Of a stretch of 14,586 bases of DNA, positions 235-11,176 are shown piece after piece. The number at the start of each line of letters is the position of its first letter. Positions within the stretch are counted from its first letter, which is position 1. Origin of the DNA: Candidatus Helarchaeota archaeon (GTDB lineage: Archaea > Asgardarchaeota > Lokiarchaeia > Helarchaeales > HEL-GB-A); NCBI GenBank assembly GCA_013375455.1, contig JABXJT010000111.1:1-14586 (forward strand), written 5' to 3'. A program made the translations under genes and the position numbers. Under the pieces are notes generated by a model that had not been told where the DNA came from, did not search any database, and saw only the letters and a program-made list of their open reading frames with translations.

Positions 235-675
235 ATGCCTACACGGGTAAAAGCAACATTGATTGAAAATATTGCGTTCAAGGTTAATGTAAAGGATTTC
301 CCAGAATTCATCATGGATGAGCCGAAATCATTCCACGGAAATGATATGGGGCCCAGTGCCGGTGAATTTTTACTAGTGTCGATTGCCGGCTGCCAAGGGG
401 TCAGTTTCATGTTCGCCCTGCAAAAATTTGGGATTGAAGTAGAGGAAATGGTGGTTAATGTTGAATCGAAGATGACACATATTTTTCGTGAAAAATATGA
501 GCGAGAGATTCTTAATATAGTTAAAATAAACGTGGTAATTGATGTCAAACTCAAGGATCCAGAAGATGAGGAAGATCTTTTAGAATGTTTTGAAGTATAT
601 AGAAAGTATTGCGTTGTAACTACTTCAGTTGAGCATGGAATTCCTTATAGCGTGGAACTGAATCACCTAAAGTAG
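235..675 (+). CDS. OsmC/Ohr-family peroxiredoxin-like protein
   Basis: The 146-residue product fits the usual OsmC size of about 140 residues. OsmC/Ohr proteins are cytoplasmic dimers that reduce organic hydroperoxides with a pair of cysteines. Both signature positions are visible: C53 in 'GEFLLVSIAGCQG' (the usual 'P.E.LL.AL..C' helix) and C126 in 'YRKYCVVTTSVEHGIPYSVEL' (the usual 'a..yC.v...l..g.p...e' end). The N-terminal strands and G35-N36-D37 before P40 also match the family. The ATG at 235 is preceded by GGTGA with 6-nt spacing and a TATA box. It stands as a single gene, 74 nt before the GTPase gene on the same strand; a joint transcript is possible but not shown. Many archaeal OsmC-like proteins have no tested substrate, so hydroperoxide reduction is inferred from the two cysteines. 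Confidence 0.85.
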   Translation: MPTRVKATLIENIAFKVNVKDFPEFIMDEPKSFHGNDMGPSAGEFLLVSIAGCQGVSFMFALQKFGIEVEEMVVNVESKMTHIFREKYEREILNIVKINVVIDVKLKDPEDEEDLLECFEVYRKYCVVTTSVEHGIPYSVELNHLK

Positions 676-749: not shown

Positions 750-1766
750 ATGCAATCAGGTAAAGGGTCCATTCTGAAAGGATTAGTGATTTCAAAATTC
801 GGAGATCTGGGACCTGAGCCCATTTCATGGTACCCAGATCAATTTAGTAATATGATGCTGACTGAAATTGCAGTAAAAGCAGTTTCTATTCTTGCAGGTG
901 AGGAAGGTGTCCCATCTCCCAAATTTCTTTCAGTTATACCCCTTCCTAAGTTTCATTTGGCCTCCGTGATTTACGTTTTTAAAATCCCCGACCCCCAAGC
1001 CCGGGGAGGGCTATTGGTTGGAACTACATCCATACTCTTTGACATTAAATTCATGTCTGTTATCTACCAAACGATAGACGACCTTACGCGGTTAATTTCA
1101 CCCATAGATAGTTTTATAACCAAACCTATTGTTGAAAATGAAGATATAACAGCTATCGTAAAGAGATTTTATGATTCTATAGAGGAATTTATCAATAATC
1201 GGCGAGAGGAAGAAATTACCCGATATAAAATCGCAGAGCGTGAAGAAATAAAGAAGTACGATGCAATTTATTCATTTAAAGTAGTCGTAGTGGGTGACCC
1301 TAGCGTGGGGAAAACGACGTTGGTCTTGCGGTATGTCGAGAGAGCGTTTCGTGAATTATACATACCAACTATCGGAGTCCAAGTTTCCTTAAAAAAAATG
1401 GAATTGGATAACATTTCTGTTAAGTTTAATTTGTGGGATATTGCAGGACAAGACCTTTTTAGCCAAGTCCGAGATAAGTTCTACGATGGAAGCCAGGCAG
1501 TAATCATACTATATGATATAACGAATCCGAAGACGTTCGAAGACGTGTTCCAATGGCATGCAGATGTCAAGCGGGTCTTAGGAGAAGTGCCGGGCTTCAT
1601 TATAGGTAATAAACTGGATTTACCTCGAAAAATTAGCCGCTTCGACGGAAACGAATTAGCAAAAAAATTAAATTTGCAGTTCACGGAAACTTCCGCCAAG
1701 AATGGTGTGAATATAGATTTTGTATTTGAGCAACTAGCTAAATCGCTTATTAAAAAAAATAAATAA
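750..1766 (+). CDS. Rab/Ras-like small GTPase with N-terminal longin-like domain
   Basis: The GTPase domain (about 175-338) has all G motifs: P-loop GDPSVGKTT 182-190, switch I threonine T207 in PTIG, WDIAGQ 229-234 with the catalytic-type Gln, NKLD 287-290 and TSAK 314-317. It should bind and hydrolyse GTP as a molecular switch. Residues 1-130 form a separate domain (GLVISKFGDLGPEPISWYP, helix 37-52, strands to about 98, helix 102-116) with a strand-helix order consistent with a longin/roadblock-like fold, followed by a charged helical linker 130-172. The C-terminus is ...KSLIKKNK with no cysteine, so no prenyl anchor as in eukaryotic Rabs; membrane attachment, if any, would come through the N-terminal domain or a partner. 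The start ATG has only a weak GGGAT upstream. The gene ends 4 nt from the convergent coiled-coil gene. GTPase identity is certain; the N-terminal fold is inferred. Confidence 0.92.
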   Translation: MQSGKGSILKGLVISKFGDLGPEPISWYPDQFSNMMLTEIAVKAVSILAGEEGVPSPKFLSVIPLPKFHLASVIYVFKIPDPQARGGLLVGTTSILFDIKFMSVIYQTIDDLTRLISPIDSFITKPIVENEDITAIVKRFYDSIEEFINNRREEEITRYKIAEREEIKKYDAIYSFKVVVVGDPSVGKTTLVLRYVERAFRELYIPTIGVQVSLKKMELDNISVKFNLWDIAGQDLFSQVRDKFYDGSQAVIILYDITNPKTFEDVFQWHADVKRVLGEVPGFIIGNKLDLPRKISRFDGNELAKKLNLQFTETSAKNGVNIDFVFEQLAKSLIKKNK

Positions 1767-1770
1767 TTAA

Positions 1771-4700
1771 TTAAATATACGCTCGAAATAGTTCAAAAAC
1801 GCGGTCGACCATTAGTCCCGCGCTTTTAAACTGAGTAAGCTCACCAGTCCACACTTTTAAATTCTCTTGGAACTCCCGTTCAAATTCCTTAGTGAATTCG
1901 GCTAATTTCAGTTCATGCCATTCAGAACTATTTCCATCAAGAATCAAGGCAGCAACGACTAATTCGCCCTGGTTTAAGATGATTTCAAATTCTTTATAAG
2001 CCATTTTTCGTATGGGGACGGATTTGGATTTGATTTCAGATCCAAAGGAGCCAATGGCTGTTAAGAAGCCACTAATCAGGTCGGGGTTAATTTCCCACGT
2101 CCCTAATTTTCGGTGAAATAGGGCTGTGCCCATATTACGATGAATGATTAGCAAATAACGTAGTTGAAGTAAATATTGTTTCTTATCTTCTATCTCTTTG
2201 GGAATTTCTTCCTTTCTTTCGAAATCTATTTCCAGAACCGCTCCCACCCCTTCTTTGATTTCTTCTAAAAATGCTTCGGTTTCTTCAGAAATAGGTTTTA
2301 AAGCGGATAACGTGAGATTATCATTAATGGGATCGAGGTTTCCCTCTAATCGGGAGCTAGACAGGAGATATACAAGTTGATCCTTTAATTGGGAAGATTT
2401 TATGTTAGTAGCTTTCGAAAGATATTTTAAATCCGTTCGATAGCCTTCAAAAGCTTTAACGACGAAATAAATTCGCTCAATCAATACATTTTCATTTAAG
2501 TTATTTTGAATCTTCTGCAAAACAGATTCAATTAAGGTTGTAGTTTTTTGCCAGGATTGCAGTTCTTCTTCGATTATTGTTGTGAAATCTGAAAACTTTT
2601 TTGAATTATCTTTGATAAAACCATCAATTTGGGAATTGGCCTTTATTATCAATGCACGAATGGTCTTGATGGTATTAAGTAACGTAGGTTCTTGGTTAAG
2701 CACGTCACTTTTTTCTAAAGCATTATCGTAAAGTTTCATTAAATTTGAAAAATCTTTTGTTAACAGCAATTTTTGATTTTTAATAATTAGCACTAGCTTA
2801 TTTTTTTGGGTAAGTAAATCTTTTTCTACACTAAGATTGTTAAGCTGACCGTCTAATGTTTGCATTGACTGCAGAATAAAATTTTTCTCTTTTTCCCAAT
2901 TTAAAACGACATTATTCACGAGTTTCTTAAAGGTTTTATATTGCTTCGAAACTTCCTTTATGGAAGCATTGATTTCGGTTTCAAATTGATTCGATGTTTG
3001 AATAAACTGAGAAGTGGCTGCGTCTAGTTTTGATTTTGCCTCAGAAAGATTTTCATGCTTTATTAAGATTTCTATATGTTCCTTAAGAGAATCTAATTTT
3101 TCTGTTTGAGTATCAATAAATTTCTTTACTTTAGTTTCAAGTTCATTTTTCTTGGTAAGTTCGGTTTTTTCGTGGAATCGTGTTAAAAGTTCTTCTTTTT
3201 TTGATAACCATTCAGTTTCTACCTGTTTCATCTTCTTATTAAGTGAAGTTCTAAATTCATCGAATTGAACGTTAAAATGAGAAATTTTAGCAACACTTGA
3301 CCCAATCAATTTCTCTAAATTTTGAGCAATCGTTGTTTTAAGAGCATTTATTTTCTCATCTTGTGCTTCTAATTCAGCTGATGCTGAATCAAATTCTCTA
3401 TTCTCAATTTTTTCTTTTATGAGTTTTTGGGTGTTATCTAATTGATCTTTATAATTTTTGATGTCCTCTTCTATTTTTTTAGGGATTTTCTCTCGCACTT
3501 CAAGAATACCCTTGCCCTCGTCGGAAATTTCCTTTAAAGATTCAATTATAGAATCGGATAATTTTTTTGACTCAATTATAATTTCAGGAATTTGGGATAA
3601 TTCAATGGATTCGCTGAACTGAGAATCTTTTTCCGAAAGATCCTTGATAAGTGCTTCAATGTTTCCATTTAATTCGTTAATGGTTGTACTTGCCAGTTGA
3701 TGATTTTTAAAGTTCTGCTGGAAGGTTTTTTTAAAATTTTGAGTCAATAAATCTACTTTATCCCTAACTTGATTGAGATATTCTTCGTAATTTTTAATCA
3801 ATCTTTGCTCTTCCGAAAGAGCTTCTTCGTGTGCTTTATCGTGTTCCTTTTTCTTAATGAGAACATTCATTTTTCCTTGAAATTTGTCCATGTAAGTTGA
3901 TAGAGCTTTCTTATTAACGGGCCACTGTTCTAAAAATTCAATAATGATTCCTTCAAAATCAACATACTCGAATTGGGATACGATTTTAGTGAGGCTCTTT
4001 TCGAAATTTTCAATTTCTTTCATAATTTCAATTTTTCCCAGTTTTAATCTTTCACGTGCTTGACCAATTTCTTTGACCTCAAGCCATCTTAAAATTTCTT
4101 GTTCAAGACTTTTTGGCAGATCAAGTAATGATTGGAAGTTCTTTTCAATCTCTTCGCGCTTTGGTAATATTTGGGCTTTCTCTGAGAAGATCTTATCGAC
4201 GGGGATTGGTTTATCCAACGAGAGTGCAAGGAATTTTCTCGGAAGCTTAATGCCTTGAAATATGTAATGTTTCTTGATTTTATGAATTTCCCCTTCAAGG
4301 AATTTTCTCACGAGGAAATCGATTATGACAGTTTTAACACGTTCTTCAGCATCATCAAACCGTTTGCTAAATTCGTTTAATTTCAACTCAGTTGGATTCT
4401 GATTTTGGATAATTTGAATCAAACTTTTACCAATATCATAGGTAATTTTATTGCTTTGGTCCAAATAATCATTGAAGTATTCTAATTGGTCAATAATTTT
4501 TCCGGGAAACCATTCCTTGGTGAGCATTTGGTAAGCTACACCTTCAACGAAATCGTTAGAAACGGAGTTTCTTTCAGAAATCGGGGTCAAATAGATTTTG
4601 TATTCGGAAAGACTCTGTTTAAGGATATCATCCTCTATCTGTTCTACTAAGGGATCAAAAATCGTGAGTGTGATTAGATACGATTGTATAGTGCTTAGAA

Positions 4701-5712
4701 TATTGGAGATGGTATCCATTATCTGCTCGGAATATCCACCATCATTTCGTTTTAATCCCACTAAAAAACTTTTAATTGGCCCTAGATGAATAAGATTGAG
4801 TTGCTTGAGTAGAGAAAACGTGGCAACGGCCCAGAATGTATCTGACATAACTGGAACTTTTTTGCCAACACCAAAGCCGCTATTTTTATGTTGAAATGGG
4901 ATCATATTTTGGAGTAAATCTAAATAATTAATTTCTTCGCCACTTTTTATAAGATAATAGCATAATATTTGAAAAATCCGTTCAATCTCTAGAGTATATT
5001 GATTTCTATCGAGAAAATTAATGAGGCTCTTCATATCAATTTTTTCAACACTTTCTAAAATGTATAATGCGTTGATAGCGAAAAATGTTGTTTTATAAGA
5101 GGGTTTCCCCTTACAAATAATACAATTATCCAATTCACAATGAACGAATCCTCGCTTTTTTTGAAGCGTGAGAATAAATTGAATATCTTCATTGAAATTA
5201 TCGTGGCAAAATTGGCATAAGTTTGACCACTTTGATGCTGATTTTTGAATCACTCTGTTGCAAATTACGCAGGGTGATTTTTCTGGAGTGAGTGGAGCAT
5301 CGCAATTAAAACATTTTTCCATTTTATAGAGTTGTTTTTGTCCACACTCGGGACAGAAAAGTTGTTCGTCAATCAGACGCTCTTTAAACACGCCCATTAG
5401 ATATAAAAGTGCAAGCGCATAAAAGGTTGACCATATATCTGGACTTTCACCATCTAATTTGCTAGTATATCCGCCCGTACTCATCCGATATTTCATTATA
5501 TGAGAAATAAGTTGCTTCCTGTTTGATTGTTGGAAAGTACCTAGTTTTTCTAAGCCGATACTCGCCCAAAAAGTTTCTTCTAGTGTATTATAAAAGCCAT
5601 CAGCATTTTGCTCTAATTCCAGAAACCCAATAATTCCTCTTGTGTCAATTGGAATGGTTAATTGATATTTTGAAGCCGTAACCTCGGTTATCCACAGGAG
5701 TTTATTCGTCAT
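1771..5712 (-). CDS. Giant multidomain protein: prenyltransferase-like helical repeats, zinc ribbons, long coiled coil, C-terminal longin-like domain
   Basis: This 1313-residue protein has no single named family that I recognise. Residues 20-110 and 205-350 contain helical repeats like prenyltransferase-beta/terpene-cyclase barrels ('ADGFYNTLEETFWASIGLEKLG', 'SPDIWSTFYALALLYLMG', 'SGFGVGKKVPVMSDTFWAVATFSLL'). The Asp-x-Cys zinc ligands expected in true protein prenyltransferases are not found before the TFWAVA segment, so catalysis is doubtful. Between them are zinc ribbons: C120/C123-C134/C137, C148/C151-C166/C169, and C192-C197-C200. Residues about 430-470 may be a winged helix. About 540-1130 is Lys/Glu-rich coiled coil. 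The C-terminal 128 residues (from YLLIIHRN) look longin/roadblock-like ('NPDLISGFLTAIGSFGSEI', 'FTKEFEREFQENLKVWTGELTQF') and resemble the cytoplasmic domain of the surface protein at 11768-14410. No signal peptide or membrane helix is present. A role as a cytoplasmic tether or scaffold for GTPase signalling is inference. Confidence 0.85.
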   Translation of the reverse strand: MTNKLLWITEVTASKYQLTIPIDTRGIIGFLELEQNADGFYNTLEETFWASIGLEKLGTFQQSNRKQLISHIMKYRMSTGGYTSKLDGESPDIWSTFYALALLYLMGVFKERLIDEQLFCPECGQKQLYKMEKCFNCDAPLTPEKSPCVICNRVIQKSASKWSNLCQFCHDNFNEDIQFILTLQKKRGFVHCELDNCIICKGKPSYKTTFFAINALYILESVEKIDMKSLINFLDRNQYTLEIERIFQILCYYLIKSGEEINYLDLLQNMIPFQHKNSGFGVGKKVPVMSDTFWAVATFSLLKQLNLIHLGPIKSFLVGLKRNDGGYSEQIMDTISNILSTIQSYLITLTIFDPLVEQIEDDILKQSLSEYKIYLTPISERNSVSNDFVEGVAYQMLTKEWFPGKIIDQLEYFNDYLDQSNKITYDIGKSLIQIIQNQNPTELKLNEFSKRFDDAEERVKTVIIDFLVRKFLEGEIHKIKKHYIFQGIKLPRKFLALSLDKPIPVDKIFSEKAQILPKREEIEKNFQSLLDLPKSLEQEILRWLEVKEIGQARERLKLGKIEIMKEIENFEKSLTKIVSQFEYVDFEGIIIEFLEQWPVNKKALSTYMDKFQGKMNVLIKKKEHDKAHEEALSEEQRLIKNYEEYLNQVRDKVDLLTQNFKKTFQQNFKNHQLASTTINELNGNIEALIKDLSEKDSQFSESIELSQIPEIIIESKKLSDSIIESLKEISDEGKGILEVREKIPKKIEEDIKNYKDQLDNTQKLIKEKIENREFDSASAELEAQDEKINALKTTIAQNLEKLIGSSVAKISHFNVQFDEFRTSLNKKMKQVETEWLSKKEELLTRFHEKTELTKKNELETKVKKFIDTQTEKLDSLKEHIEILIKHENLSEAKSKLDAATSQFIQTSNQFETEINASIKEVSKQYKTFKKLVNNVVLNWEKEKNFILQSMQTLDGQLNNLSVEKDLLTQKNKLVLIIKNQKLLLTKDFSNLMKLYDNALEKSDVLNQEPTLLNTIKTIRALIIKANSQIDGFIKDNSKKFSDFTTIIEEELQSWQKTTTLIESVLQKIQNNLNENVLIERIYFVVKAFEGYRTDLKYLSKATNIKSSQLKDQLVYLLSSSRLEGNLDPINDNLTLSALKPISEETEAFLEEIKEGVGAVLEIDFERKEEIPKEIEDKKQYLLQLRYLLIIHRNMGTALFHRKLGTWEINPDLISGFLTAIGSFGSEIKSKSVPIRKMAYKEFEIILNQGELVVAALILDGNSSEWHELKLAEFTKEFEREFQENLKVWTGELTQFKSAGLMVDRVFELFRAYI

Positions 5713-5864: not shown

Positions 5865-6875
5865 TTAGTAGGCAATAATGTGTGTAATTTGAGGTATTAA
5901 GTTCATTCTTCTTATTTCTGAGAACTTCGCTATAATTAATAATTCTTCTAATTGATTAAATTCAAAAAGTCCCGCCTCGGGTGTTTCTAGATGGAGGAGT
6001 AAGTTCAATAAAACGTTGGATTTAGGGCTTATTCGTCCCTCATCAAGAAACATCTCTTGTAAAATTAATATTCCATTTGTTTTTAACCAATCACGTGCTT
6101 TTTTAAGGATTATAAGAGCATTTTTTGGTTTAAATGCCTGAATGAATCCACTCATGAGAATGACATCGAATTTCTCATTCAACTTAAGTTCCAAAACATC
6201 TGCTAACTTAATTTCGATTCTGTCTTGAAGTTTATATTTCTCTACATTTTTCCTAGCTTCATGTACAATTGCAGCAATCCAACCACCATCTACACCAACA
6301 CCTGTCAATTCAGGATTATTTAATGCAAAGTTAATTAAGTAGCTTCCCAGGCCGCATCCCAAGTCTAAAATATGGCAATTCTCTCTTAGAATTGGTATTT
6401 CCTGCATTAGTATGGGAACAGCTAAATTTGCAATCGGAGCGATAGATTCTACGGTATTCATTGCATGTTGCGTTTCCATCAATGGTCTCTTTCCTCTAAA
6501 TCGGGCTTCAATATCAGAAAAAACTTCAGGGATGATTTTCGTGTATTTACATAAATATCCAATGTAAGTTGATGAATGGGAAAGGAGATAATGTTTACTC
6601 CACCTTGAAAGATAAAATTCATCACGATCTTTTTCCAGATAACCACAAGCTGTAGCAGCTTCGCACCATGCTTTGGTCAATTCTTTTTCAAAACCAAATG
6701 TATTAGCAATGGTTTCTGCTTTAATTTTCTTTTTTTCTAAAAAATCGAAAATACCTAGCTGAATCCCAGCCGAAATAAAATGAAATTCTTGAAATGTATC
6801 AAGAATATTGATTAAATGCTGTATATCTTTAAGGCGCTTTTGTTTCTTCTTACTATTAGACGCCAATTTAATCAC
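5865..6875 (-). CDS. SAM-dependent methyltransferase with N-terminal winged-helix/dimerisation domain (O-methyltransferase-like)
   Basis: The 336-residue product has the two-part layout of class I O-methyltransferases of the hydroxyindole/caffeate type. An N-terminal helical winged-helix domain (about 15-100; 'AGIQLGIFDFLEKKKIKAETIANTFGFE') is followed by a Rossmann domain with SAM motif I 'ILDLGCGLGSYLI' (169-181), an acidic residue after strand 2 (GVGVDGG), 'IKLADVLEL' and 'FDVILMSGFIQAF'. It should transfer a methyl group from S-adenosylmethionine; the acceptor (small hydroxylated or ring compound, or quinone-like molecule) cannot be told from sequence. The start codon is GTG (complement of 6873-6875), the only start that keeps the basic N-terminus. 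It lies 27 nt downstream of the seryl-tRNA synthetase gene on the same strand, so the two are probably cotranscribed, with a palindrome between them instead of a ribosome binding site. Confidence 0.82.
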   Translation of the reverse strand: MIKLASNSKKKQKRLKDIQHLINILDTFQEFHFISAGIQLGIFDFLEKKKIKAETIANTFGFEKELTKAWCEAATACGYLEKDRDEFYLSRWSKHYLLSHSSTYIGYLCKYTKIIPEVFSDIEARFRGKRPLMETQHAMNTVESIAPIANLAVPILMQEIPILRENCHILDLGCGLGSYLINFALNNPELTGVGVDGGWIAAIVHEARKNVEKYKLQDRIEIKLADVLELKLNEKFDVILMSGFIQAFKPKNALIILKKARDWLKTNGILILQEMFLDEGRISPKSNVLLNLLLHLETPEAGLFEFNQLEELLIIAKFSEIRRMNLIPQITHIIAY

Positions 6876-6902: not shown

Positions 6903-8414
6903 TCAATAGAAAACAATTTGTTTAGGAAGGTCCCCGACTATTTTTCTAAATTTGTTCGGCCAATCATTTGGATTTAAGCCTTTCTGAGAAAGAAACGCTG
7001 CACACCATCTTTCTAGTCCAATTCCTGAACATCCAGACCACAATTCTAATCTTTGAGCTTTAATGTTGAATGCTCTAATGTATTTATCGCCTAAAATCGA
7101 TAAATTTTGGAATTCAAGCCATTCACTATCTTCTCTTGAGCCCCTATATGGAAGATAAGCTTCAAAATCGATGGTTCCCTTTATTCTTTCGATATTGTCG
7201 TCCAATCCTAATTGTCCCGAATGTTGCAGGTAAAATGGAGTCACCCAACTCATTCTCCATTCTAAATCTAAGATTTCATTAAAAATCAATTTGTATTTTT
7301 CAATGAGCTTGTCTTTAACCTCAATCAACTGGCCTTTTGTTCCGATATAAACTAACTCAATACGATGAAATTCATCCATGCGTTCTATTCCGTGCCGACC
7401 ACCACTTTCATATCGATTACTGACAGCGGCTTTATCAAAGACTAGCAATGGAAATTGGTCATCTCCTATCGTTTTCCCCGAGAAAAATTCATAAATATTT
7501 GGACATTGAACGTAACAGTTAATAGCATTAGGGGGAGATATTTTCTCCTTCAGTATTTCGATTGGAATCTCTTTAGTAATTTTTAAATAATCAATAAAAT
7601 CTTCCCAATCCTCCGGAGTCCTTGTCTTTGGCTCACATACATAATAGTATTCCATCGGAACTCCTTCCAAATGACCAGTTCTTAATAAAGTACTAAAGGA
7701 CTCGTGGTGGGGTTCTATTACTTCGTTAAATTTTAAGGGCTCCGCGATTTCAGTCAGGACAAGTTTTTCCATCGCTCTTAGGATTTTAACAAATTGCGGA
7801 CCGAAGAACCATTTTCCTTTGGTCTTTGCTTGAGCAATCCACCCATTTTCGAACATTTCTTTGCTCGGATCTTTGTTCCAAATCATATCTTTTTTTTCTG
7901 ATGCCCACAAGATTTCAGAAAATTCTGCTTTTCCTATATAATGTTGTAATTCTATTTTTTCTTTGATTCGTTTTACAATCCTATTGACATACTGCTTTTG
8001 GAGGACTCTTTCCTCTTTTACATCCCGAAAAAGAAGCAGACACCTCGTGTCATCATATTTAATTTCATCAACAAACGGTAATTCAAATGGAGCTAAAGGC
8101 TCTTTATCTAATTCAAATTCAATTTCATAAAGAGGAACTTCTAATTCTTTAATGGTTAAATGATATTTTTTTCCAAATTCGGTCTTTATCCTATTTCTTA
8201 TTTCAAATAATAGTTGATGTGGATAGGATCTATCAACATATATAATCTCTAAATGAAGTTTTTTCCCTTTTTGCTCAATGTTAAAAATAATCGGCTTACC
8301 TTCCTTCTTTTCTTCTTGTTTCTCTTTGATATCTATTAGTAAGCCTTTTATTTCTTTAAAATAGTCTGAAATATCAGTATTGAATGTGTATACTGATTTT
8401 AATTTCGCCTTCAT
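6903..8414 (-). CDS. serS: Seryl-tRNA synthetase, zinc-dependent archaeal (methanogen) type
   Basis: The 503-residue product attaches serine to tRNA-Ser in the cytoplasm. It is not the common SerRS: it lacks the N-terminal two-helix arm and has instead a mixed N-terminal tRNA-binding domain (1-165), as in the rare type known from Methanosarcina and other methanogens, which is also about 500 residues. Class II motifs are clear: motif 2 'GIERMDEFHRIELVYIGT' (342-359) and motif 3 'SGCSGIGLERW' (460-470). The active-site zinc ligands of that type (Cys, Glu, Cys) match C304 in 'QCPNIYEFF', E353 in 'HRIELV' and C462 in 'GCSGIG', with spacing nearly equal to the M. barkeri enzyme. All appear intact, so it should be active. 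It is the first gene of a leftward group with the methyltransferase; the ATG at 8412-8414 has no strong ribosome binding site. Confidence 0.93.
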   Translation of the reverse strand: MKAKLKSVYTFNTDISDYFKEIKGLLIDIKEKQEEKKEGKPIIFNIEQKGKKLHLEIIYVDRSYPHQLLFEIRNRIKTEFGKKYHLTIKELEVPLYEIEFELDKEPLAPFELPFVDEIKYDDTRCLLLFRDVKEERVLQKQYVNRIVKRIKEKIELQHYIGKAEFSEILWASEKKDMIWNKDPSKEMFENGWIAQAKTKGKWFFGPQFVKILRAMEKLVLTEIAEPLKFNEVIEPHHESFSTLLRTGHLEGVPMEYYYVCEPKTRTPEDWEDFIDYLKITKEIPIEILKEKISPPNAINCYVQCPNIYEFFSGKTIGDDQFPLLVFDKAAVSNRYESGGRHGIERMDEFHRIELVYIGTKGQLIEVKDKLIEKYKLIFNEILDLEWRMSWVTPFYLQHSGQLGLDDNIERIKGTIDFEAYLPYRGSREDSEWLEFQNLSILGDKYIRAFNIKAQRLELWSGCSGIGLERWCAAFLSQKGLNPNDWPNKFRKIVGDLPKQIVFY

Positions 8415-8550: not shown

Positions 8551-9600
8551 ATGCCTGGGATAGTAGGATATGGAATATATCTTCCGTATTATAGGATTAA
8601 GCTCTCAGATATCGCGGAAGCTTGGAATAGAAATGCAAAGATACCTGGTGAGAAAACAGTTCCGGCGCCTGATGAAACAACGCTCACTATGGGGCGTAAT
8701 GCGGTTGTTAATGCGCTTGAACACGCCAATATTGAGCCTAAAGAAATTAATGCAGTTTACTTCTGTTCCAATTCAAGTATGATTGAAGGATCGAACGCCC
8801 AGGATATTGCGGTCGCAACTGGATTAAACTCTGATAGTATCATTGCAGATTTACATGGATCTCCTCGAAGTTTAACTGTTGCCATCCAATTGTGTTTAGA
8901 TTCAATCAAATCAGGAAGCATTAAGAATGGAATAGTCGTAGGTTCGGATATTCTTGTGGGCGGTTTGGGAACAAGTGCTGGTGATGCCGCTTCGGAATAT
9001 GTTTCCGCTGCAGGGGCGGGTGCCCTAATAATAGGGAATGATGGAAGTATTGCAGATTTTGAAAATAAGGCATCATCTATGTCAGGAATGAAGGAGCGCT
9101 GGAGAGATTTAGGAGATAAATTTCCGAGAGTTGGTGATGGAAGGTTTATCCGCGATGTGGGCTATATTAATAACGTAACGCGGACGGGGAAGGAGCTGAT
9201 TCAAAAAACTCGTCCAATTGTTGAGTATGATCATATCATTTTACAGCAACCCCATGGAACCTGGGTTCGACGAGCAATAGGGAAATTAGGAGTCCCAAGA
9301 GACGCATTAAAGGTAAAATTAACAGCTCCTGGGATGCATATCGGAAAATTTGGAGACTTGGGTGCCGCTTGCATTCCTGTCGCATTAGCCGAGGTTCTAG
9401 ACCAAGGAAAACCGGAAGAGAAAATCCTAACGATATCATATGGTGCGGGTGGAAGTGATGCATTTAGTTGGATCGTAAAGCCCGCCATCAATGAGAAGAG
9501 AAACAGGGCAACTACTGTCGCAAAATTCCAGAAATATAAGGAATACGTAAATTACACGACCCATCTGAAATATAATAAAGCGATTTCACAATTTACTTAG
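8551..9600 (+). CDS. HMG-CoA synthase-like protein lacking the catalytic Glu-Cys-His triad
   Basis: Length (349) and overall pattern match archaeal 3-hydroxy-3-methylglutaryl-CoA synthase: 'GIVGYGIYLPYYRIK' at the start, 'PAPDETTLTMG', 'GDAASEYVSAAGAGALIIG', 'SYGAGGSDAFSW' near the end, and the usual basic tail 'KYKEYVNYTTHLK'. Genuine enzymes condense acetyl-CoA with acetoacetyl-CoA in the mevalonate pathway. The three catalytic positions are changed here. The usual Glu in '(G/A)(S/T)ES' is N74 in 'FCSNSS'; the nucleophilic Cys of 'ADLEFACKAGT' is P105 in 'ADLHGSPRSLT', aligned without gaps; the His of 'FHQPNG' is Q232 in 'LQQPHG'. The 'GN.YSGS' segment is also altered (HIGKFGD). The frame is intact and the flanking motifs are conserved, so it looks like a maintained pseudoenzyme or an enzyme with other chemistry, not a decaying gene. 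It heads an operon with DUF35 and thiolase. Confidence 0.85.
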   Translation: MPGIVGYGIYLPYYRIKLSDIAEAWNRNAKIPGEKTVPAPDETTLTMGRNAVVNALEHANIEPKEINAVYFCSNSSMIEGSNAQDIAVATGLNSDSIIADLHGSPRSLTVAIQLCLDSIKSGSIKNGIVVGSDILVGGLGTSAGDAASEYVSAAGAGALIIGNDGSIADFENKASSMSGMKERWRDLGDKFPRVGDGRFIRDVGYINNVTRTGKELIQKTRPIVEYDHIILQQPHGTWVRRAIGKLGVPRDALKVKLTAPGMHIGKFGDLGAACIPVALAEVLDQGKPEEKILTISYGAGGSDAFSWIVKPAINEKRNRATTVAKFQKYKEYVNYTTHLKYNKAISQFT

Positions 9601-9616
9601 TAGAAAGAAGGTGTGT

Positions 9617-10015
9617 ATGAAAATGTCAACCCCACCGTTGTATCGAGATTTGAGTATTAATTTGAAATTTGAAGGTATGAAATGCAAAAACTGCGGATAT
9701 ATTGCCTATCCGGAATACCATCGTGTCTGCTTGAAATGTGGCACCATTGATCAATGGGAAAAAGTGAAATTAAGTAAAACAGGGAAGGTTCATACTTATA
9801 TCGTATCATACTACTTACCTGCCGAATTTGAAACCCCACTACCCCTAGCCATTGTTGATTTGGATCCACCAGGAGGACGCGTTTATGCCATCTCCACCGA
9901 AACAAAAGCAGATGAGATGAAAGTGGGGTTACCCGTGGAACTTGACTTTCGAGAAATTTTTTATAAGGACGGATTGAGCGTGCCGTCATTTAAATTTAAA
10001 CCTTTAAGGGAGTGA
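9617..10015 (+). CDS. DUF35 zinc-ribbon/OB-fold acyl-CoA-associated protein
   Basis: This small protein has the DUF35 layout: an N-terminal helix, a rubredoxin-like zinc ribbon (CKNC...CLKC in 'MKCKNCGYIAYPEYHRVCLKC') and an OB-fold ('GKVHTYIVSYY', 'PLPLAIVDLDPPGGRVYAIS', 'VGLPVELDFREIFYKDG'). In the characterised archaeal complex the DUF35 subunit bridges acetoacetyl-CoA thiolase and HMG-CoA synthase and helps form the shared CoA site. Its position between those two genes fits such a scaffold. Three in-frame starts exist: GTG 9611, ATG 9617 and ATG 9623. AGAAGGTG at 9606-9613 is the ribosome binding site; 9617 and 9623 flank the ideal spacing about equally, and GTG 9611 overlaps the site and is least likely. 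The TGA stop overlaps the ribosome binding site of the thiolase gene, and the gap to it is 6 nt, so translation is probably coupled. Confidence 0.9.
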   Translation: MKMSTPPLYRDLSINLKFEGMKCKNCGYIAYPEYHRVCLKCGTIDQWEKVKLSKTGKVHTYIVSYYLPAEFETPLPLAIVDLDPPGGRVYAISTETKADEMKVGLPVELDFREIFYKDGLSVPSFKFKPLRE

Positions 10016-10021
10016 TTTGAG

Positions 10022-11176
10022 ATGCGAAAAGAAGTAGCTGTAATTGGAGCTGGAATGATAGATTTTGGAGAGTTGTTTGGGAAAAGCGTAGACAATATGA
10101 TAGAGGATGCTTATATCAACTGTCTTAAAAGTGTAGATAAGGGAATTGAACCAAAAGAGATTGAAGCCGCTTGGCTCGGGTCCGCCTACGAGAAATCAGG
10201 AGCCTCACTCGCTGTCCCAACTGGGCTATTCAGGATTCCCATATCCCGCAACGAGAATGGGTGCGCGACTGGATCGGACGCTTTTAGGAATGCATTCTAC
10301 GCTGTCAAAGCTGGAATTTACAAGGTCGTGCTAGTGTGCGGTGCTGAGAAGATGCGGGATTCAGCGGGTGGGCTCATCGCGAAGGCTGCCGCAAAAGATG
10401 GAAGAGACATGTGGCGGTACCGGGCGCGAACTATGCCCGCTTTCTTTGCGTTACGGGGAACACGCCACTTCCATGAATTTGGATCGAAGCGTGATCACCT
10501 GGCAATGATCTCCGTAAAAAACCATCACAACGGATCGCTATACCCCTACGCCCATTATAAATTCGAGACCACGGTGGAGAAAGTCCTCAATGCCCCGCTT
10601 GTATCTTGGCCATTAGGGCTGTATGATTGCTGCCCGATCACTGACGGCGCTTGTTGCGTGCTCATCGCTCATACAGATGTCGCGAAAAAATTCACGGATA
10701 CACCCGTGTGGGTTGAAGGTAGTGCTTGTGGAGTTGACAGCTGGATGAGAGGGCTGGATGAGAACCTAATCGGTTTCCCTGCATCGGCTGTAGCTGCGAA
10801 GGGAGCATATAAAATGGCAGGAATAACCGCAAAAGATGTTCAAGTCGCGGAGGTTCATGACTGCTTTACTGTGACGGAGATGTTAGATTACGAGGATCTC
10901 GGTTTCTGTAAGAAAGGTGAAGGACACAAAATGATTGAAGAGGGTATTGTTAATTTGGATGGTTCTCTTCCCGTAAATCCATCAGGTGGCTTAATTGCAA
11001 AGGGACATCCGATTGGCGCCTCGGGAGTGGCCCAGATCGCTGAAATCTACGAGCAAATAAGAGGAACCGCCGGGAAAGTGCAAGTCCCCGATGTGGAAAT
11101 AGGTCTACAACATAATATTGGGTTAGGTCGAGGAGCTACTGGAAGCGCCTCAGTGGTAACCATTCTACGCCGTTAA
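10022..11176 (+). CDS. Thiolase (SCP2-type acetyl-CoA C-acyltransferase)
   Basis: The 384-residue product fits archaeal SCP2-type thiolases, which join two acetyl-CoA to acetoacetyl-CoA or split 3-oxoacyl-CoA. Catalytic features are present: nucleophile C81 in 'ENGCATGSDAF', H279 in 'HDCFTVTEMLDYEDLGF', H329 in 'NPSGGLIAKGHPIGASG', and a terminal 'GLQHNIGLGRG' loop as in SCP2 thiolases. It is the last gene of the operon; its GGAG lies within the end of the DUF35 gene. If it makes acetoacetyl-CoA, the product would normally pass to HMG-CoA synthase, but the synthase-like neighbour lacks its triad, so the real substrate may differ. Part of the gene is much richer in G+C than its surroundings (37 of 60 bases at 10381-10440). 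Its last 38 coding bases and stop are repeated at 11734-11775. The TAA is at 11174-11176. Confidence 0.93.
   Translation: MRKEVAVIGAGMIDFGELFGKSVDNMIEDAYINCLKSVDKGIEPKEIEAAWLGSAYEKSGASLAVPTGLFRIPISRNENGCATGSDAFRNAFYAVKAGIYKVVLVCGAEKMRDSAGGLIAKAAAKDGRDMWRYRARTMPAFFALRGTRHFHEFGSKRDHLAMISVKNHHNGSLYPYAHYKFETTVEKVLNAPLVSWPLGLYDCCPITDGACCVLIAHTDVAKKFTDTPVWVEGSACGVDSWMRGLDENLIGFPASAVAAKGAYKMAGITAKDVQVAEVHDCFTVTEMLDYEDLGFCKKGEGHKMIEEGIVNLDGSLPVNPSGGLIAKGHPIGASGVAQIAEIYEQIRGTAGKVQVPDVEIGLQHNIGLGRGATGSASVVTILRR

Follow-up and report, generated by a model that had tools for sequence, protein, structure and literature searches.

In the archaeal complex of thiolase, 3-hydroxy-3-methylglutaryl-coenzyme A (HMG-CoA) synthase (HMGCS) and DUF35 protein, a coenzyme A (CoA) site is shared between the thiolase and the HMGCS where the two meet, and they associate through the DUF35 protein (PMC12329534). 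The Friedel-Crafts acyltransferase PhlABC (PpATase, CsATase) is also built of an HMGCS-like subunit, a DUF35-type subunit and a thiolase-like subunit that has its Cys. Its HMGCS-like subunit, PhlA, lacks the Cys and the Glu, the bound substrate is touched by residues of PhlC only, and a functional enzyme requires expression of the whole operon (PMC6392133); exchange of Cys88 in PhlC abolishes CsATase activity (PMC12955522). MucABC of Streptococcus macacae (9VBO, 9VBT) has an HMGCS-like chain without the Cys as well, and acetylation of a tetramate precursor has been proposed as its reaction (PMC10161427). BbsAB (benzoylsuccinyl-CoA thiolase) and the ChsH2/Ltp2-type enzymes pair a thiolase-fold subunit with a DUF35 partner, and the available portion of PMC12329534 mentions no HMGCS-like third subunit in them. 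Here we describe a cassette of three genes, for an HMGCS-like protein, a DUF35 protein and a thiolase, on contig JABXJT010000111.1 of a Candidatus Helarchaeota archaeon (assembly GCA_013375455.1). The window is the whole stretch analysed, 14,586 nucleotides. Its HMGCS-like protein has lost the catalytic residues of the family, and we are fairly confident that it is maintained as a non-catalytic subunit of a thiolase complex.

The reading frame of the HMGCS-like gene is intact, and databases label its product HMG-CoA synthase. The product matches the HMGCS of Methanothermococcus (6esq_I, E 9.1e-50), and its predicted structure has the archaeal HMGCS fold. The original prediction held that Glu, Cys and His had been replaced by N74, P105 and Q232 on this scaffold, with the Cys-to-Pro change in a gap-free stretch, and the alignment with 6esq_I bears this out: the nucleophile region of the Methanothermococcus enzyme, 'ADLEFACKAGT', aligns without a gap to 'ADLHGSPRSLT' of the window protein. 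The numbering of Glu82 and Cys114 in that enzyme is consistent with PMC6392133. Compared with an active HMGCS, the window protein thus has the fold and none of the Cys, the Glu or the His, and the position of the Glu varies among its close relatives. In this, and in having lost the Asn of the 'GN' motif, it differs from the synthase of the archaeal complex, so that synthesis of HMG-CoA is not expected of it. The coordinates of these and the other features are collected in Table 1.

Table 1. Features of the window discussed in the text, with positions counted from its first nucleotide (Mt, Methanothermococcus).
Feature	Position	Strand	Basis or remark
OsmC-like gene	235-675		
Ras-type GTPase with long N-terminal extension	750-1766		
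1313-aa protein with prenyltransferase-toroid match	1771-5712		
O-methyltransferase-type gene	5865-6875	-	
Methanogen-type seryl-tRNA synthetase	6903-8414	-	465.6 bits, cut-off 611
HMGCS-like subunit without Glu/Cys/His, 349 aa	8551-9600	+	Alignment, predicted model
N74, position of catalytic Glu82	8770-8772	+	Alignment with Mt HMGCS
P105, position of nucleophile Cys114 (N-end of nucleophile helix)	8863-8865	+	Alignment
Q232, position of catalytic His (Mt238, His of 'FHQPN')	9244-9246	+	Alignment
D269, position of Asn in 'GN' motif	9355-9357	+	Alignment
C274	9370-9372	+	Cys in 22/22 clade members, in 0 of the other inactive rows compared
DUF35 (zinc ribbon / OB-fold) subunit	9611-10015	+	PF01796, 6esq_E
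Thiolase subunit, 384 aa	10022-11176	+	Cys81, His279, His329 (and His364) at catalytic positions
Cys81, acyl-accepting Cys position of thiolase	10262-10264	+	

A catalytic Cys that had merely shifted, which would have overturned the original prediction, was looked for in the sequence alignment and rejected. C72 stands opposite a Gly that never varies in the intact enzymes, C115 opposite a Cys also present in the Methanothermococcus enzyme, and C274, five residues past D269, opposite a site where intact enzymes mostly have Ser; in sequence, all three are off the nucleophile position.

The same replacements recur in the close relatives of the window protein, a clade (A2) of 22 members that are 56-88% identical to it and whose named members are mostly metagenome-assembled genomes of Helarchaeota. 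Position 105 is Pro in 20 of the 22, with one Ala and one Ser, position 232 is Gln in every member, and position 74 is Asn in 12, Ile in eight, and Ser and Thr in one each. Conservation of the replacements across the clade makes a sequencing error unlikely. When genome contigs were scanned with the single protein no relative was found; the scan with the A2 alignment found two, and by the clade profile the clade is present in two of 227 Asgard genomes, Hel_GB_A (661.7 bits) and LW55_61 (625.6 bits), the next best score being 340.1.

The trio of HMGCS-like, DUF35 and thiolase genes is found with intact frames in both of these genomes as well as in the window. In all, 37 distinct loci with an inactive HMGCS-like gene were considered: the window, the two Helarchaeota loci, locus L010 and 33 of 40 chosen regions, all hand-picked from among the matches listed and not a random draw. 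Every one of the 37 has a thiolase on the same strand within 2.5 kb. In 35 the Cys and both His lie on one thiolase open reading frame (ORF), in the other two the ORF is split, with the Cys on one piece and both His on the other, and in none does the thiolase lack its catalytic residues. A DUF35 domain is present in 36, fused to the HMGCS-like protein in 15, and the single miss (L080) has its HMGCS-like gene at a contig end. Loci from the genome search span about 1.5 kb on each side, and absence of a thiolase there says little. Within the window itself, the genes are adjacent on one strand, the HMGCS-like protein lacks Cys and Glu and the thiolase keeps Cys81, which is the composition of PhlABC. 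The DUF35 gene of the window likely starts at the ATG at 9623 (MSTPPL...), judging from the sequence of the Hel_GB_A counterpart.

Related pairs of inactive subunits show purifying selection, if of a loose kind. The ratio of nonsynonymous to synonymous substitution rates (dN/dS) is about 0.06-0.18 in the seven of 14 chosen pairs that are not saturated at silent sites; the pairs are not independent, some sharing a locus, and were taken as stop-to-stop frames, with the whole ORF for fused proteins. The inactive subunit is the more diverged partner in all 14 pairs, by a factor of 1.30-4.34 over its thiolase; between the window and Hel_GB_A, the HMGCS-like proteins are 71% identical and the thiolases 92%. 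Cassettes with an intact synthase have a median ratio of 0.89 (325 pairs from 26 cassettes), although the inactive and intact sets come from different lineages. Low dN/dS together with faster divergence is the pattern that should be expected of a subunit that is non-catalytic and still needed. The distance matrices of HMGCS-like protein and thiolase are correlated across 35 cassettes (0.92; none of 9999 permutations was as high), and in 28 of the 35 the two subunits have the same nearest neighbour.

These observations suggest how the complex of the window may work. We take Cys81 of the thiolase to receive the acyl group and His279 and His329 to serve in acid/base catalysis, as is familiar from the thiolase family. 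Covalent chemistry would then lie wholly in the thiolase, as thiolase-type acyl transfer through Cys81. By analogy with the archaeal complex and PhlABC, the HMGCS-like subunit may form the second, non-catalytic wall of a shared CoA site, and may hold the oligomer together through the DUF35 protein. The original prediction had left a choice between a maintained pseudoenzyme and a subfamily with different chemistry. The first is favoured by the cassette, the complete thiolase, the purifying selection in related pairs, the correlated divergence and the precedent of PhlABC; the second has little for it.

The window protein is not an isolated case; by sequence, inactive HMGCS-like subunits are numerous. 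On one alignment of 114 sequences, the complete trio of Glu, Cys and His is present in 43. The many others have lost the set, except that one row retains a Cys, another retains the His, and a fragment lacking the Glu site has both Cys and His. A broader profile search, of which the best 120 of 330 proteins were examined, added 111 new proteins, 77 with the full set and 34 without; all 34 lack Glu and Cys. Four inactive rows keep the His (L095, P0052, P0054 and P0075, the last three being among the 34), and one (L045/L069) keeps the Cys without Glu and His, L069 (G016:C93) having Val and Gln at the other two positions. In the other inactive rows the Cys position holds Ala, Thr, Leu, Ile, Val, Ser, Gly or Glu, and the His position mostly Gln, Tyr, Ser, Thr or Pro. 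Source names of the inactive members include Helarchaeota, Bathyarchaeia, Atabeyarchaeum, Chloroflexi and Pseudomonadota. The rows with Glu at the Cys position are L006, L007, L077, L082 and L101.

The main tree was built from 83 rows with the four catalytic columns masked, leaving out short or doubtful rows (P0015, P0022, P0023, P0024, L083, L096 and L097) and 24 further canonical ones. One branch (98/96) splits the 17 intact rows from 66 inactive ones, PhlA among them, and a smaller repeat tree of 78 rows without an outgroup gave the same branch 99/96. PhlA has a long branch of its own that arises between the canonical rows and the remaining inactive ones, and a branch of 100/99 separates it from those 65. 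One ancient loss of the catalytic set would be the simplest reading and is compatible with these sequences.

Helarchaeota relatives offer the converse case. Hel_GB_A and LW55_61 have four HMGCS-family matches each, and in both one match is a DUF35-HMGCS fusion with intact Glu, Cys and His (L104:3785-5491 and L105:3193-4842), near genes for HMG-CoA reductase and polyprenyl synthase; the LW55_61 cluster also has type 2 isopentenyl diphosphate (IPP) isomerase and glycerol-1-phosphate dehydrogenase. The thiolase-like gene adjoining the intact synthase (L104:5452-6669 and L105:4847-6073) has Phe, Asp and Asn in place of Cys, His and His, and in Asgard loci L016 and L017 the thiolase paired with an intact synthase has two of the three positions occupied by Glu and Phe. 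Among 39 intact-synthase loci the thiolase is complete in 28, lacks two or three residues in four, is truncated in one and is absent from the available stretch in six. No locus in which both genes were seen has lost both catalytic sets. Inactive synthases beside complete thiolases, and the converse in the relatives, therefore indicate that the residues of either fold can be lost while the two genes remain clustered.

Since the thiolase-like gene of the mevalonate cluster in the two relatives lacks its residues, acetoacetyl-CoA should come from another thiolase, and others could supply it: the PRK06064 thiolase model has 11 and 19 matches in the two relatives, some being parts of one gene. For this reason the plainest guess for the substrate of the window complex is acetoacetyl-CoA or another beta-ketoacyl-CoA, and a complex of this type is a candidate source of acetoacetyl-CoA for the mevalonate pathway. 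The pathway is probably present in the lineage of the window and encoded elsewhere, judging from the two relatives. The warning in the original prediction, that this gene should not be used as evidence for the pathway, was well placed, as both relatives have a separate, intact synthase beside HMG-CoA reductase. More tentatively, and as something that we judge somewhat less likely than not, Asgard archaea may have made the bifunctional thiolase/HMGCS complex modular, so that one catalytic fold or the other could be retired while the scaffold is kept: the Helarchaeota mevalonate version would keep the synthase beside an inactive thiolase, and sister complexes, including that of the window, would keep the thiolase beside an inactive synthase, each with its own acyl substrate.

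Several results weigh against these readings. In the main tree PhlA lies outside the large inactive clade. When six distant FabH-like Asgard proteins were added as an outgroup (leaving out the long P0033 and P0035 and five near-copies), the inactive rows needed two changes, a single change occurred in 0% of 200 bootstrap trees, and PhlA joined the canonical rows (98/99). The outgroup branches measured 2.19, and the FabH-like proteins, which keep a Cys but carry Thr and Tyr where the His and the Asn would be, are a poor outgroup; holding the inactive rows together gave a log-likelihood 3.08 higher and was not rejected (approximately unbiased test, p-AU 0.614). Shared species and paralogue history would also predict correlated divergence of the subunits, and the window's own two pairs are among the seven of 14 that are saturated at silent sites. 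Two Cys of the clade, C72 (in 21 of 22 members) and C274 (in 22 of 22), lie close to the vacated site along the sequence and might have a role. An intact synthase in the window organism itself is inferred from two relatives. Lastly, the curated NCBIfam equivalog model NF003274 (cut-off 244) accepts the inactive window protein by 3 bits, at 247.2.

The same model accepts the intact Hel_GB_A synthase (261.5) and rejects the intact LW55_61 synthase (239.1), and these inverted scores point to a problem of the model or its cut-off for HMGCS annotation. TIGR00748 (cut-off 353.35) rejects the window protein, at 217.7, and both intact synthases.

Among other explanations, the one that survives best also takes the window protein as non-catalytic and supposes a PhlABC- or MucABC-like acyltransferase, in which the thiolase would acylate a carbon acceptor other than CoA and would not act as a beta-ketothiolase. 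The likeness of composition to PhlABC is plain and the MucABC chain shares its fold with the window protein. In sequence and fold, however, the window protein resembles the archaeal complex more closely than it does PhlA, in which Glu, Cys and His are replaced by Cys, Gly and Gln and which lies outside the window clade, and the MucABC chain is 19-20% identical to the window protein. Few neighbours were checked in the window and the LW55_61 locus, and no further biosynthetic gene was among them; the methyltransferase gene of the window is missing between the corresponding genes of Hel_GB_A. We consider an acyltransferase rather unlikely. Non-covalent chemistry in the vacated pocket (e.g. decarboxylation, hydration or non-covalent condensation), with C274, D269, Q232 and R106 as active site, appears improbable. 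Throughout the 22-member clade Q232, D269, C274, R106, Q84 and D85 are unchanged, and none of the other inactive rows compared has C274, Q84 or D85; yet position 74 varies (Asn, Ile, Ser or Thr), position 105 is mostly Pro, other inactive rows carry diverse residues at the Cys and His positions, and the subunit diverges faster than its thiolase. A decaying pseudogene would share that faster divergence and is rejected as most improbable, given the many residues invariant across the clade, dN/dS well below 1 in the seven unsaturated pairs of related inactive subunits (the window's pairs being saturated), and the intact frames in the window and both Helarchaeota relatives.

Around the cassette, the order of the OsmC-like, Ras-type GTPase and 1313-aa genes is common to the window and the Hel_GB_A locus. 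In the window, and not in Hel_GB_A, the 1313-aa gene is separated from the cassette by the O-methyltransferase-type and seryl-tRNA synthetase genes. The LW55_61 cassette is flanked by genes for a gelsolin-repeat protein (L002:9008-9862; weak, 21.6 bits against 21) and an actin-family protein of 570 aa (L002:12738-14450).

Inactive HMGCS-like subunits are already known from PhlA; among the open-licence PMC papers listed, none was found to describe an archaeal inactive family, reciprocal loss of the residues or the inverted scores of the model. As an apparently inactive partner subunit, the window protein is not to be counted as a mevalonate-pathway gene. Asgard mevalonate calls, many of them from automated names, bear on arguments about membrane lipids and the origin of eukaryotes. 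The reciprocal losses offer a testable case of a two-enzyme complex being dismantled, in which a partner stops catalysing and its gene stays.
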